33,997 bases of DNA from Thermoleophilia bacterium. Its GTDB lineage: Bacteria > Actinomycetota > Thermoleophilia > Gaiellales > Gaiellaceae. Positions 22,983 to 28,771 of the stretch are shown piece after piece. Where the stretch lies: contig JABFWJ010000119.1 of assembly GCA_013362295.1 (NCBI GenBank), forward strand, positions 1-33,997, written 5' to 3'. The position numbers and the translations under genes were made by a program. The notes beneath the pieces are model-generated. The model worked only from the letters and a program-made list of their open reading frames with translations. It did no database searches and had not been told where the DNA came from. Numbering within the stretch: position 1 is the stretch's first letter; every line of letters begins with the position of its first letter.

Positions 22983-24251
22983 CTATGTCTCCAACGCCAG
23001 CAGGTCGTCGACGGTCTCGCGGCGGCGGATCAGACGCGCCTCGCCGTCACGCACGAGCACTGCGGGCGGGCGGGGGACCGCGTTGTACGTCGACGACATC
23101 GCGAGCGTGTATGCGCCTGTCACCGGCACGGCGAGCAGGTCGCCTCGGCGCGGCTCCGGCAGGTCGACCCGCTCGATCAGGACGTCGCCGGACTCGCAGT
23201 GCTTTCCGGCGACCGAGTACGGCTCCGCAACGTCCTCGTCGGCGCGGTTCGCGAGCAGCGCCGTGTAGCGCGCGTTGTACATCGCGGGGCGCGGGTTGTC
23301 CGACATGCCGCCGTCGACCGTGACGTACGTCGTTGCGGCGCTCGCCCGCTTCACGCCGCCGACCGTGTAGAGCGTCACGCCCGCGCGCGAGACGAGTGAG
23401 CGGCCCGGCTCGAAGATCAGCTGCGGATCCGGGAGACCCTGCAGAGGCCACGTGCGCTGCAGCTCGCCGAGGAGGCCGCCGACGAACTCCTCGATCGTGA
23501 ACGACGGCTCCTCGAGCACGTGCCGCACGCCGAGCCCACCGCCGAGGTCGATCACGCGCGGTGTCCACCCGAGCTCGGCCCGCAGGCGGACCGCGAAGCT
23601 CGAGATCCAGTCGACGGTCATCAGCGAGGCGCCGAAGTGCAGGAGCTGCGATCCGACGTGGACGTGCAGCCCCTCGCATTCCGGCAGCCGCCGGATCGCC
23701 TCGACCGCGTCGTCCGGCGGGAGCCCGAACTTCGATCCGTGATGCGCGGTCTTCACCGCTTCGTGCGTGTCGGCTTCGATCCCCGGCGTGACCCGGACGA
23801 GGAACCGGGTCGCGTCGATCGCCCGCGCACGCTCGAGCTCCTCGAGCGAGTCGAGCACGATCAGTGCGCCGGAGCCCGCGGCCCGGCGGAGCAGCTCGTC
23901 CTCCTTGTTGTTGCCGTGGATCACGAGCCGCTCGCCTGGGACCCCCGCGCGGAGCGCAAACTCCAGCTCGCCGACCGTCGAGACGTCGGCGCCGAGGCCC
24001 TCCTCGGCCAGGACCTGCAGCACCGCGACGGAGGGAAATGCCTTCGTGCCGTAGGCGACGAGCGCGCCCGGGGCGGCGGTCAGGTACGCGCGCGCGTGGC
24101 CGCGGATCGTCGCCTCGTCGTAGACGACGACCGGCGTGCCGAACTCGCGCGCGAGCTCGGTCGAGCGCACACCGCCGAGCACGAGCTCGCCGTCCGCGAC
24201 GCGTGCGGTGTCGGGCAGGAGATCCGTCAACACGGCAGGCATTCTGCTCAT
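22983..24251 (-). CDS. lysA: diaminopimelate decarboxylase
   Basis: A 422-residue fold-type III PLP enzyme. PLP-binding Lys70 lies in LVAYGTKAFPSVAVLQVL. Further family marks are GLGADVSTVGELEFAL, HGNNKEDELLRRA, FGLPPDDAVEAI, HVHVGSQLLHFGA, DLGGGLGVRH, FEPGRSLV and the catalytic CESGDVL near the end. It converts meso-diaminopimelate to lysine, the last step of lysine synthesis, in the cytoplasm. The N-terminus MSRMPAVLTDLLPDTARVADGELVLGGV fits; the start may be ATG 24251 or the in-frame ATG 24242. The 24251 codon overlaps the divergent transporter's ATG. The DsbA-family gene follows without a gap. The protein could be mistaken for another ornithine/diaminopimelate decarboxylase, but the motifs favour lysA. 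Confidence 0.9.
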   Translation of the reverse strand: MSRMPAVLTDLLPDTARVADGELVLGGVRSTELAREFGTPVVVYDEATIRGHARAYLTAAPGALVAYGTKAFPSVAVLQVLAEEGLGADVSTVGELEFALRAGVPGERLVIHGNNKEDELLRRAAGSGALIVLDSLEELERARAIDATRFLVRVTPGIEADTHEAVKTAHHGSKFGLPPDDAVEAIRRLPECEGLHVHVGSQLLHFGASLMTVDWISSFAVRLRAELGWTPRVIDLGGGLGVRHVLEEPSFTIEEFVGGLLGELQRTWPLQGLPDPQLIFEPGRSLVSRAGVTLYTVGGVKRASAATTYVTVDGGMSDNPRPAMYNARYTALLANRADEDVAEPYSVAGKHCESGDVLIERVDLPEPRRGDLLAVPVTGAYTLAMSSTYNAVPRPPAVLVRDGEARLIRRRETVDDLLALET

Positions 24252-26268
24252 GCCGATGCTCGCAGCGCTCGCCGACCTCGCACATCGCCGCAGCCGCGCG
24301 ATCGCGGTTGGGGCGCTCGCGATCGCGCTCGCGGCCGCCTGGTTCGGGGCGTCGACTCCGTCGCGGCTCGAGTCGAGCGATAACGACTTCCAGGACAGCT
24401 CGTCGGAGAGCTTCCGCACGCTCGACCTGCTCTCGCGCGCGACCCACGTCCTTCCGGGCCCCTCGCTGGTCGTCGTCGCTCCGCCTCGCGAGGCGCGTGC
24501 CGCCGCGGCGCAGCTGAGGCGCGACCCGGCGGTCGCTCGTCTGCAGGCTCCCGCGGCGGTGTCGCGTGACGGTCGGCTGGTGCTCGTGGCCGCGTGGTTT
24601 CGCACGCACGGTTCGGCAGCGGCCCCGAACGTCTCGCAGCTCGCGCGCTCGCTGCCGGGAATCGTCGGCGGCGCGGCACTCGCGAACGAGCAGGTGGGCA
24701 GGCAGTCCGAACGCGACCTGGTGCGGGCCGAGCTGATCGCGTTTCCGCTCCTGCTTCTGCTTGCGCTCTGGATCTTCCGCGGCGTCGTCGCCGCGCTGCT
24801 CCCCGTCGCCGCGGGCCTACTCGCGTTGTTGCTGACGCTCGCGCTCTTGCGGCTCGTCAACGACGTCCGTCCGATCTCGGTCTTCGCGCTCAACCTCGTC
24901 ACGGGCGCCGCCATCGGGCTCGCGATCGACTACAGCCTGTTGCTCGTCACGCGGTACCGCGAGGAGCTCGCCCGCCGCGGGCCGGGGCGCGAGCCGCTGC
25001 GCGCGACGCTCGCGACCGCCGGCCGGACGGTCGCGTTCAGCGCGGGGACGGTCGCCGCGGCGTTTGCGTCGCTCCTCGTCTTCCCGCTGCCGTTCCTGCG
25101 CTCCATGGCGATCGGCGGGATCATCGTCGCGCCTCTGGCGGGGCTCGTTGCGCTCGTCCTGCTGCCGGGGCTGTTCGCCCTGCTCGGCGCGCGCGTCAAC
25201 GTGCTCGCGCCGCGCCGCTGGCAGCGCGCCGCCGAGCGCGCCGCGCGGGCGGAGCAACGCGGAGCCTGGTATCGCTTTGCGCGCTGGGTGATGGCGCGGC
25301 CTGCGCGTGTCGCGCTCGGCTCGGCGGCGCTCCTCGTCGCGCTCGGCGTGCCGTTTCTCGGCGTGCGCTTCGTCGTCGTCGATGCGAGCGTCCTCCCATC
25401 GAGCTCGAGCGCCCGCCGCGCCGACGACACGCTGCGCGAGCGGTTCGCACCCGGGCTCGATGCGCCGCTGCACCTCCTCGTGCGCGCGCGGAGCCCGGCG
25501 CCGACGATCGGTGCGATCCGGCGGCTCACCGGCGTCTCGCGGGTCGCTGCGCCCCAGCGCGTCGCTCCGGGCCTGTGGACGGTCGACGTCGTGCCGCGCA
25601 CGGGTGCGATGAGCGAGCAGACGAAGCAGCTCGTGCGGGACGCCCGCGGGCTCCCGGGTGTCGCCGCGACCGGCCGCACCGCGTGGTATCTCGACACGGC
25701 CGCGAGCCTGCGAAACAGGCTCCCGCTCGCGCTCGCGCTCCTCGCGCTCACGACGTTCGCGCTGCTGTACCTCGTCACTGGCTCGCTCGTGCTCCCGCTG
25801 AAGACGCTCGCCGTGAACGTGCTCGGCCTTTCGGCCGCGTTCGGGATGCTCGTGCTCGTCTTCCAGGACGGCCGCCTCGAGTGGCTGTTGCGCTACCGCA
25901 GCCAGGGCGCACTCGAGCTCACGCAGCCGGTGCTCCTCTTCGCGATCGCGTTCGGGCTCGCGACCGACTACGGCGTCTTCCTGCTTTCGCGGATCAAGGA
26001 AGCACACGACGCCGGTCTGCCGAACCGCGAGGCGGTCGCGCTCGGTCTCGAGCGGACGGGACGGGTGATCACGGCCGCGGCGCTCCTCTTCTGCGTCGCG
26101 GTCGGCGCATTCGCCACCTCGGGCGTCCTGATCGTGAAGGAGCTGGGGCTCGGGATAGCCTTCGCCGTGGCGATCGACGCGTCGCTCGTCCGGGCACTGC
26201 TCGTTCCCAGCCTGATGGCGCTGCTCGGCGACTGGAACTGGTGGCCGCGGAGGCAATTTCGCCGCTAA
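24250..26268 (+). CDS. MMPL/RND-family transporter
   Basis: A 672-residue membrane protein made of two similar halves, each with a large extracytoplasmic loop and a bundle of five to six helices. The first bundle has NLVTGAAIGLAIDYSLLLVTRYREEL; the second has FAIAFGLATDYGVFLLSRIKEAH. These G-x-x-x-D-Y motifs carry the proton-relay aspartate and tyrosine of MmpL/RND exporters. Loops of about 130 residues follow helices 1 and 7. It likely exports lipids or hydrophobic compounds using the proton gradient. Start ATG 24250 (MPMLAALADL) or ATG 24256 is possible, and both diverge from lysA. No accessory lipid-synthesis genes are nearby, so the cargo is unknown. Confidence 0.87.
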   Translation: MPMLAALADLAHRRSRAIAVGALAIALAAAWFGASTPSRLESSDNDFQDSSSESFRTLDLLSRATHVLPGPSLVVVAPPREARAAAAQLRRDPAVARLQAPAAVSRDGRLVLVAAWFRTHGSAAAPNVSQLARSLPGIVGGAALANEQVGRQSERDLVRAELIAFPLLLLLALWIFRGVVAALLPVAAGLLALLLTLALLRLVNDVRPISVFALNLVTGAAIGLAIDYSLLLVTRYREELARRGPGREPLRATLATAGRTVAFSAGTVAAAFASLLVFPLPFLRSMAIGGIIVAPLAGLVALVLLPGLFALLGARVNVLAPRRWQRAAERAARAEQRGAWYRFARWVMARPARVALGSAALLVALGVPFLGVRFVVVDASVLPSSSSARRADDTLRERFAPGLDAPLHLLVRARSPAPTIGAIRRLTGVSRVAAPQRVAPGLWTVDVVPRTGAMSEQTKQLVRDARGLPGVAATGRTAWYLDTAASLRNRLPLALALLALTTFALLYLVTGSLVLPLKTLAVNVLGLSAAFGMLVLVFQDGRLEWLLRYRSQGALELTQPVLLFAIAFGLATDYGVFLLSRIKEAHDAGLPNREAVALGLERTGRVITAAALLFCVAVGAFATSGVLIVKELGLGIAFAVAIDASLVRALLVPSLMALLGDWNWWPRRQFRR

Positions 26269-26271
26269 GAT
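26266..26271 (+). promoter_or_regulatory. -10 element TAAGAT for the leuS leader transcript
   Basis: The TAA stop of the MMPL gene forms the first half of TAAGAT. The ATG of the leader peptide follows 7 nt later, so the leuS transcript probably begins on that ATG. Confidence 0.5.
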
Positions 26272-26278
26272 GCGGCCG

Positions 26279-26299
26279 ATGGAGCTGCTGCTTACGTAG
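26279..26299 (+). CDS. leader peptide MELLLT with three consecutive leucine codons
   Basis: A six-codon reading frame, ATG GAG CTG CTG CTT ACG TAG, lies about 100 nt before leuS. Three of its six codons are leucine, in a row, as in leader peptides that measure charged leucyl-tRNA. A -10 hexamer is placed for leaderless translation, and an intrinsic terminator lies downstream. It is too short for codon statistics, so the assignment rests on context. Confidence 0.6.
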   Translation: MELLLT

Positions 26300-26303
26300 C
26301 GCA

Positions 26304-26363
26304 GGGAGCACCCGCGGCGACGCCGCGCCGATCTCCCGCGGCCTCTCGTTCGAGAGGCTTTTT
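26304..26363 (+). terminator. attenuator: pause/anti-terminator helices and intrinsic terminator before leuS
   Basis: The terminator stem GCCTCTC (26341-26347) pairs with GAGAGGC (26352-26358) around GTTC, and five Ts follow (26359-26363). Upstream, GGGAG (26304-26308) can pair with CTCCC (26333-26337) around an inner GC-rich hairpin. The self-complementary CCGCGG occurs twice (26312 and 26336), and pairing of the two copies would invade the terminator base. This fits a switch controlled by ribosome stalling on the leucine codons. Confidence 0.6.
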
Positions 26364-26398
26364 CGTCTCCGGGCCTCTTTTCACGGCAGGGAGCATTC

Positions 26399-28771
26399 GT
26401 GAACGAGTACGACGCACACGCAATCGAGAAGAAGTGGCAGTCGGTCTGGGAGGCAGAACAGACCTTCCACGTCGACAACCCGGCGCCGGGCACCGCGCCC
26501 GACGACGAGCACTTCTACATGCTCGAGATGCTCCCGTATCCGTCGGGCAGCCTGCACATGGGGCACGTGCTGAACTACACGCTCGGCGACGTCGTCACCC
26601 ACTTCAAGCGCCGCAACGGGTGCAAGGTGCTGCGTCCGATGGGGTTCGACTCCTTCGGGTTGCCGGCCGAGAACGCCGCGATCAAGGACGGCGGGCATCC
26701 GCTCGAGATCACGGAGCGCAACATGGAGGCGATCCGCGTGCAGATGCGCCTGATGGGGTGGGCGATCGACTGGCAGCGCGAGGTGTCCGCGCACGAGCCG
26801 ACCTACTACCGCTGGACGCAGTGGCTGTTCCTGAAATTCTTCGAGCACGGCCTCGCGTACCGGAAGGCCGCGCCGGTGAACTGGTGCCCGAACGACCAGA
26901 CGGTGCTGTCGAACGAGCACGTCGTCGACGGCCGCTGCTGGCGCTGCGGGTTCGTCGTCGAGACACGGAACATGGAGCAGTGGTTCTTCAAGATCACCGC
27001 GTACGCCGATCAGCTGCTCGACGACCTGGAGACGATCGATTGGCCCGAGCGCACGAAGAAGATCCAGCGCCAGCACATCGGCCGCTCCGAGGGCGCGGAG
27101 GTGCTGTTCCGCATCGAGGAGCTGGACCGCGACGTCGCCGTCTTCACGACGCGGCCCGACACGCTGTTCGGCGCGACGTTCTTCGTCGTCGCTCCCGAGT
27201 CGCCGCTCGTCCAAGCGCTGGCAGGCGGAGACGAGGAGGTGCTGACGTATGCGAGCATCGCGGCCGCGCGCCCGACCGAGGAGCGCGCGACCCGGGAGAA
27301 GAGCGGCGTCTTCACCGGCCACTACGCGACGAACCCGGTCAACGGCGAGAAGCTTCCGGTCTGGATCGCCGACTACGTGCTGATGGAGTACGGAACGGGC
27401 GCGATCATGGCGGTGCCCGCCCACGACGAGCGCGACCTCGAGTTCGCGAAGCAGTACGACCTCCCGGTCCGGGCGGTGATCGACGAGCACGGCAGGCTGG
27501 TCGGCTCAGGCGAGTTCGACGGGCTGCCCTGGCGCGAGGCGATCCCGCGCATCGTCACGTGGCTGAGCGGGCGCGGTCGGGCGAAGCCCGCGATCAACTA
27601 CCGCCTGCGTGACTGGAGCTTCTCGCGCCAGCGCTACTGGGGCTGCCCGATTCCGATCGTCTACTGCCCGGAGCACGGAGCGGTGGGCGTGCCGGAGGAC
27701 CAGTTGCCGGTTCTGCTGCCCGAGGTCGAGGACTACCGGCCGAAGGGCAAGCCGCCGCTGGCGTCGAACCTCGATTTCATCAACACGACGTGCCCGAAGT
27801 GCGGCGGCCCGGCGCAGCGCGAGGCGGACACGATGGACACGTTCGTCGACTCGTCCTGGTACTTCCTGCGCTACACCGATCCGCACAACGAGCACGCGCC
27901 CTTCGATCGCGCGATCGCGGACTTCTGGATGCCGATCGACCAGTACATCGGCGGCATCGACCACGCGAAGGGACACCTCCTATACTCGCGCTTCTTCGTG
28001 AAGGCGATGAACGACTACGACATGCTCGGCGTGCGCGAGCCGTTCGCACGTCTGTTCCACCAGGGCTGGGTGAAGCTCGCCGGGAAGCGGATGTCGAAGT
28101 CGCAGGGCGGCGTGTCGCCGAACGAGCTGATCGATCGGTTCGGTGCCGACGCGATCCGCATCTACATCCTCTTCCAGGGTCCCGCCGACCAGGACATCGA
28201 CTGGACGCCGGACGGCATCGACGCGACGGTGCGGTTCATCCGCCGGCTATGGCGGGTCGTGCACGAGGCGGCGGCCCGGCCGCCGTCGCCCGAGGGCGTC
28301 GACACGCCGCTTGCGCGGAAAGCGCACGAGACGATCGCGCGTGTCACGGACGACGTCGACCGCCGCTTCGTCTTCAACACGCCGATCGCCGCAGTGATGG
28401 AGCTCGTGAACGAGTTGTCGAAGGCGCCCGACGATCCGGCCGCGCGCTTCGCGGCGGAGACCGCCGTCTCGGTGCTGCAGCCGTGGACGCCGCATGTGGC
28501 GGAGGAGCTCTGGGGCGTGCTCGGTCACGACTCGCGCCTGTGGGAGGCGGCGTGGCCGGTCGCGGACGAGACGATGCTGCAGCGCGAGACGATCGAGCTC
28601 GTGCTGCAGGTGAACGGGAAGGTGCGCGACCGTGTGCGGGTGCCGGCCGGGCTGCCGCAGGACGAGCTCGTCGCGCATGCGCGGGCGTCCGAGAAGGTGC
28701 GGGCGCACCTGAACGGCGAGGAAGGGCGCGTGATCGTCGTGCCGGACAAGCTCGTCAACATCGTCATCTAG
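26399..28771 (+). CDS. leuS: leucyl-tRNA synthetase
   Basis: A 790-residue class I synthetase, near the usual bacterial LeuRS length. The HIGH motif reads HMGH (53-56) in PYPSGSLHMGHVLNYTLGD. The KMSKS loop is KRMSKS (563-568). The CP1 editing domain is present, with the TTRPDTLFGATF and MAVPAHDERDLEFA signatures that remove mischarged tRNA. A zinc-type CPKCGG is near residue 464. The anticodon-binding and C-terminal regions (VLQVNGKVRDRV) complete the protein. It joins leucine to tRNA-Leu in the cytoplasm. The GTG start has GGGAG 6 nt upstream, so this gene has a normal ribosome site, unlike its leader peptide. Confidence 0.96.
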   Translation: MNEYDAHAIEKKWQSVWEAEQTFHVDNPAPGTAPDDEHFYMLEMLPYPSGSLHMGHVLNYTLGDVVTHFKRRNGCKVLRPMGFDSFGLPAENAAIKDGGHPLEITERNMEAIRVQMRLMGWAIDWQREVSAHEPTYYRWTQWLFLKFFEHGLAYRKAAPVNWCPNDQTVLSNEHVVDGRCWRCGFVVETRNMEQWFFKITAYADQLLDDLETIDWPERTKKIQRQHIGRSEGAEVLFRIEELDRDVAVFTTRPDTLFGATFFVVAPESPLVQALAGGDEEVLTYASIAAARPTEERATREKSGVFTGHYATNPVNGEKLPVWIADYVLMEYGTGAIMAVPAHDERDLEFAKQYDLPVRAVIDEHGRLVGSGEFDGLPWREAIPRIVTWLSGRGRAKPAINYRLRDWSFSRQRYWGCPIPIVYCPEHGAVGVPEDQLPVLLPEVEDYRPKGKPPLASNLDFINTTCPKCGGPAQREADTMDTFVDSSWYFLRYTDPHNEHAPFDRAIADFWMPIDQYIGGIDHAKGHLLYSRFFVKAMNDYDMLGVREPFARLFHQGWVKLAGKRMSKSQGGVSPNELIDRFGADAIRIYILFQGPADQDIDWTPDGIDATVRFIRRLWRVVHEAAARPPSPEGVDTPLARKAHETIARVTDDVDRRFVFNTPIAAVMELVNELSKAPDDPAARFAAETAVSVLQPWTPHVAEELWGVLGHDSRLWEAAWPVADETMLQRETIELVLQVNGKVRDRVRVPAGLPQDELVAHARASEKVRAHLNGEEGRVIVVPDKLVNIVI

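Follow-up and report, generated by a model that had tools for sequence, protein, structure and literature searches.

A leucine attenuator with a leaderless leader peptide stands in front of leuS, the leucyl-tRNA synthetase gene, in a Thermoleophilia bacterium. This reading is strongly supported. The element was examined in a window of 33,997 nucleotides, the whole stretch of DNA analysed here (contig JABFWJ010000119.1). It is real and conserved, and it belongs to a known kind of leuS attenuator, found here in a new lineage. Very probably it acts by transcription attenuation and adjusts leuS expression to the charging state of leucine tRNA. In its working it resembles an attenuator, though probably not one of the classical, shared-strand kind.

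The preliminary description of this DNA had placed a TAAGAT element, consecutive Leu codons, a terminator and leuS in this region, and each of them was found where it had been placed, to the base. TAAGAT and the ATG of the leader are separated by seven bases, and the transcription start is predicted at or beside position 26279. Folding of this one sequence was not better than that of dinucleotide shuffles (z -0.92). The single sequence therefore proves nothing, and the case rests on relatives.

Table 1 Features of the leuS leader region, in window positions.
Feature	Position	Strand	Remarks
MMPL-family transporter gene	24136-26268	+	Upstream, co-directional; its stop codon is the TAA of TAAGAT
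-10 element TAAGAT	26266..26271	+	Predicted; shares its TAA with the end of the MMPL gene
Leaderless leader peptide ATG GAG CTG CTG CTT ACG TAG (MELLLT)	26279..26299	+	ATG at 26279, TAG at 26297-26299
Control Leu codons CTG CTG CTT	26285..26293	+	CTT is rare in the LeuS genes of the clade
Helix A, GGGAG (26304-26308) with CTCCC (26333-26337)	26304..26337	+	Encloses the inner hairpin
Inner hairpin CGCGGC (26313-26318) / GCCGCG (26322-26327)	26313..26327	+	Within helix A
Intrinsic terminator GCCTCTC-GTTC-GAGAGGC, then TTTTT	26341..26363	+	7-bp stem, five Ts
leuS, leucyl-tRNA synthetase	26399..28771	+	Gene under control; starts with GTG; GGGAG at 26389-26393 is SD-like

A covariance model, R1, was built from 18 leuS upstream regions of relatives. 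Searched against the organism's own genome, it scored 85.9 bits (E 2e-17) at the window site and 17.7 bits at the next best site, and it revealed no second copy of the element. Three candidate second copies, one from BLAST (L002) and two weak R1 matches (L115 and L118), were rejected, as they resemble coding sequence and were read as chance. R1 matched (E ≤ 0.1) in 77 of 103 genomes of one Thermoleophilia family. At all matched loci examined the element lies directly upstream of leuS, except at two (L146 and L188) that have no recognisable leuS start. Among the 26 family genomes without a match, some are fragmented assemblies and some truly lack the element (L024, L025 and L026). The preliminary description had proposed that related genomes be compared for conservation of the Leu codons and of the terminator, and the element passed this comparison.

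Outside the family the element is rare. The only strong extra match in a class-wide sample came from G040 (L029), a member of the order, and the other Thermoleophilia leuS genes that were examined do not have this leader element. G040 is a bin with several leuS pieces, one of which carries a family-type leader at a contig end, possibly through contamination. Weak R1 matches in other Thermoleophilia families (L190-L192) were set aside: they have no leuS nearby and resemble ordinary terminators. In a set of leuS genes from other Thermoleophilia (L196-L199, L201, L202 and L204) the leader is absent and the motif TA...T often lies a few bases before the start codon; in these genomes leuS itself may be leaderless.

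Within the family the same layout is kept in relatives whose upstream gene differs or is divergent. This bears on the possibility that the hairpin is an ordinary terminator of the upstream gene, followed by an unrelated leuS promoter, with incidental Leu codons. In the window such a reading is suggested by the overlap of the predicted promoter with the end of the co-directional MMPL gene. However, the terminator is retained in several relatives with a divergent upstream gene (e.g. L010, L011, L015 and L020), and thus does not serve the upstream gene. Conservation likewise extends to the Leu codons, to their bias towards a rare codon and to the constant distance that separates them from helix A, and we regard this explanation as very improbable.

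Seventy leaders were parsed from the family genomes. A TANNNT motif was found 7-10 nt before the leader start codon in 67 of them, while an SD-like motif precedes a single leader as against 39 of the 70 leuS starts. Most leaders are six codons (51/70) or seven codons (11/70) long. Two or three consecutive Leu residues are kept and the neighbouring residues differ, as in MELLLT, MQQLLE, MKELLL, MTRLLP and MNLLLT. Synonymous changes of the Leu codons, TTG included, also occur among the family leaders. The Leu codons, the -10 spacing and the leader start are conserved, whereas leaders differ in length, in their start codon and in the residues beside the leucines. The codon CTT makes up 87 of the 169 leader Leu codons (51%), compared to 4% of the 1530 Leu codons counted in the LeuS genes of the clade, which served as the reference. 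The simplest reading of this enrichment is selection for slow leucine decoding. As in amino-acid attenuators, a short open reading frame that repeats Leu codons is found upstream of the cognate leuS, and a conserved intrinsic terminator is found between the leader and leuS. The preliminary description's central proposal, a leucine attenuator before leuS with a leaderless leader, is supported by the conserved Leu codons, the terminator and the TANNNT spacing.

The predicted RNA structure was examined in 74 aligned matches. Of the pairs in helix A, the inner hairpin and the terminator, 97.4% are kept. Ten pairs are changed on both sides, and the observed values were reached in none of 500 shuffles; the structure itself had guided this alignment, and one of its rows is antisense. 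Four of the five helix A pairs show such both-sided changes, and helix A is also supported by a MAFFT alignment made independently from 18 sequences. Across the family the arms of the terminator are almost unchanged, while helix A varies. The inner hairpin is dispensable, since it is absent in two variants (L184 and L185). Helix A with its asymmetric loop recalls in outline the antiterminator of a T-box, and the element could in principle be a T-box or another known RNA family. However, the UGGN bulge of T-boxes is absent from the window element, and an Rfam search returned no match, T-box included, at the gathering score or with E below 1. The chance of this explanation is negligible. Rfam holds no family that covers the Thermoleophilia or the Streptomyces leuS element.

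In nearly all leaders the distance to the start of helix A is 13-14 nt when counted from the first base of a Leu codon, either the second or the last; in the window it is 13 nt, counted from the last one. In five measured leaders with a displaced stop codon (L022, L023, L182, L184 and L185) the distance from the Leu codon to the helix stays at 14, whereas the distance from the stop codon to the helix, otherwise 7, lies between -7 and 2. A gap of 3-6 nt separates the end of helix A from the terminator stem. Once helix A has folded, 42 ± 1.8 nt of RNA remain free between the P site and the end of the U-run (raw length 66-86 nt), a constancy that partly restates the constant Leu-to-helix and helix-to-terminator distances and is not independent evidence. 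The footprint of a ribosome reaches about 12 nt past the first base of the codon in its A site. With this footprint, a ribosome stalled on the Leu codons would leave helix A just free, and a ribosome at the stop codon would cover its 5' strand.

Attenuators of leuS in Streptomyces were predicted in 2005, according to Seliverstov (PMC1262725), and a 2021 reannotation of S. lividans TK24 describes LeuL2 (MRAVRLLLSEPR), a leaderless leader before leuS with a terminator after it (PMC8079986). The combination that the preliminary description had called unusual was thus already published for Streptomyces (PMC1262725, PMC8079986). Leaders of the LeuL2 type were also recovered independently in our analysis. 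Both systems have leuS as their target and a leaderless Leu leader (with a predicted 5' end in Thermoleophilia) directly upstream of it, then a helix and an intrinsic terminator with a U-run, at the same Leu-to-helix and free-spacer lengths. In the Streptomyces-like leaders, whose helix sequences are unrelated to those of the family, helix A begins 13-14 nt after the first Leu codon and the free spacer is 39-42 nt, the spacer figures covering six of nine actinomycete leaders. In contrast, the helix and terminator sequences of LeuL2 are unrelated to those of the Thermoleophilia element. The LeuL2 leader has 12 codons and its stop codon follows the 5' strand of the helix, while the Thermoleophilia leader usually has six and stops before it. 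As regards common descent, the comparison found unrelated helices, and no such element in the other Thermoleophilia examined.

Leaderless Leu leaders were also seen before leuS in three further actinomycete families (MARFLLLT in L232, MRTGLLLTEPR in L233 and MRAILLLS in L238). A long helix and a hairpin come after each of them, and the arrangement therefore extends beyond Streptomyces. In another actinomycete family (L217) the sequence AGGGTGGTACCGCGG is followed by a terminator-like hairpin upstream of leuS, an arrangement that resembles the antiterminator portion of a T-box; it gave no Rfam T-box match at the gathering score.

Classical attenuation depends on a strand that the stalled ribosome sets free and that then pairs with the 5' arm of the terminator. 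The leuS element has the same logic and the same list of parts as the trp and pheST attenuators, and helix A, or part of it, might pair with the terminator 5' arm on stalling. The preliminary description had spoken of alternative GC-rich helices between the leader and the terminator. We placed a ribosome on the control codons or on the stop codon and folded the RNA ahead of it, beginning at its front edge and including the whole terminator 5' arm. In four E. coli controls (trpL, leuL, thrL and pheM) the 5' arm was paired at 0.62-0.89 on stall and at 0.00-0.01 at the stop codon. In 68 family leaders, by contrast, the median pairing of the 5' arm was 0.12 on stall and 0.30 at the stop codon. In Streptomyces-like leaders it was near zero at the first Leu codon. 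An antiterminator that shares a strand with the terminator and is favoured on stall was therefore not found in the 68 family leaders by a test that the four E. coli controls pass. The idea that the GC-rich helices are base-pairing alternatives to the terminator is not supported for the same reason, and also because they have no strand in common with it.

Two published accounts keep the classical reading in view. Seliverstov assigns the leuS elements of Streptomyces to the classical type and gives them an antiterminator (PMC1262725), and ilvBNC of Corynebacterium glutamicum, whose antitermination hairpin borders the terminator and whose control codon is CUU, switches by a three-base overlap at the hairpin boundary (PMC11857589). 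However, when an overlap of the ilvBNC type was looked for in the leuS element, pairing of the flanks was no better than with flanks swapped between sequences. Helix A also stops short of the terminator stem, and the terminator arms stay near invariant though helix A varies. We consider classical attenuation unlikely.

For the leucine attenuator that we favour, a different switch can be outlined. Transcription would begin at or beside the A of the leader ATG, and a ribosome would start on MELLLT without a Shine-Dalgarno site. With ample Leu-tRNA the ribosome would reach the stop codon, cover the 5' strand of helix A (26304-26308) and leave. With helix A blocked, about 50 nt would remain, enough for the terminator to form, and transcription would end before leuS. 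With scarce Leu-tRNA the ribosome would wait on the Leu codons, notably the rare CTT, with its front edge at about 26303; helix A would then just fit ahead of it, and RNA polymerase would read through into leuS. We infer both the stalling of the ribosome and the direction of regulation.

A limit on RNA length is proposed for the last step because helix A has no strand in common with the terminator. In E. coli expressomes the minimum distance from the P site to the polymerase active site is 28 nt; collided expressomes have up to 37 nt, and coupled ones extend to 47 (PMC11711091). The collided expressome is sterically incompatible with terminator hairpins (PMC7858274). With a stalled ribosome and a folded helix A, about 42 nt would be free between the P site and a polymerase at the U-run. 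Folding of the 18-nt terminator would leave about 24 nt, under the published minimum of 28, so that helix A and the terminator would exclude each other through RNA length and not through common bases. This step, calculated with E. coli numbers and a margin of 4 nt, is a real possibility that we rate somewhat short of even. A helper protein, a pause site or a tertiary structure could contribute as well. A comparable effect is known at E. coli pyrBI, where a trailing ribosome suppresses intrinsic termination and a ribosome near the polymerase prevents the terminator from forming (PMC5021804). Unlike the leuS element, pyrBI has no amino-acid sensor codons and no intervening helix, and there coupling is tight across the leader.

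Control might also be exerted on translation. Helix A has a 3' strand (CTTCCC or CTCCC) that resembles an anti-Shine-Dalgarno sequence; after full translation of the leader this strand could capture the ribosome site of leuS, to release it when helix A forms on stalling. The 10-mer GCAGGGAGCA occurs twice in the window, over the 5' strand of helix A (26301-26310) and again over the leuS ribosome site (26386-26395), so the 3' strand can pair with either copy, and such control could operate together with termination. However, the exact repeat is not conserved in relatives, in which the match is generic SD complementarity only, and translational control leaves the conserved terminator and its U-run unexplained. 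We hold translational control to be quite improbable.

Several related genomes deviate from the attenuator layout. Helix A is missing in L016, L018 and L248, whose Leu codons lie right next to the terminator. L016 and L018 have a leader frame of 26 codons, and 2 nt separate its end from an ATG that is in the reading frame of leuS. In L248 GGG replaces the GTG start, so that the leader start codon is lost, and L249 keeps the terminator alone, inside a leaderless frame that is continuous with leuS. From their sequences these four look like stages of loss or decay. The absence of helix A in L016 and L018 was considered as proof that the ribosome occludes the terminator directly and then dropped, since the lost start in L248 and the state of L249 point to decay. 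The element is dispensable, as a related subgroup lost helix A and L249 retains only the terminator.

Other known systems share single features with the leuS element. E. coli pheST, with its leader pheM, is also an attenuator on an aminoacyl-tRNA synthetase operon that uses codons of the cognate amino acid; in contrast, pheM is not a leaderless frame, and its antiterminator shares a strand with the terminator (0.78-0.85 on stall, 0.01 at the stop codon). The mycobacterial polycysteine uORFs, reported by Canestrari in 2020 and described as translation attenuation where that work is cited (PMC13236596), are leaderless, amino-acid-sensing leaders from Actinomycetota as well, but sense cysteine. 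The LEU element, which concerns the actinobacterial leuA and hence a different gene, is described by Seliverstov as a pseudoknot with a base stem between the Leu codons and the leuA SD (PMC1262725).

These results extend leucine attenuation of leuS from Streptomyces to a Thermoleophilia family that is known mostly from metagenome-assembled genomes, and supply about 70 aligned natural variants of the element. A more tentative proposal, which we hold to be possible, is that actinobacterial leuS attenuators in general achieve antitermination by spacing, without a shared-strand antiterminator and with unrelated sequences in Thermoleophilia and Streptomyces. What deserves an experiment is that no shared-strand antiterminator was found in either lineage. 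Together the family variants and the Streptomyces leaders suggest a class of attenuators without the textbook overlapping hairpins; if this is true, the switch would lie in the very distance that separates RNA polymerase from the stalled ribosome.
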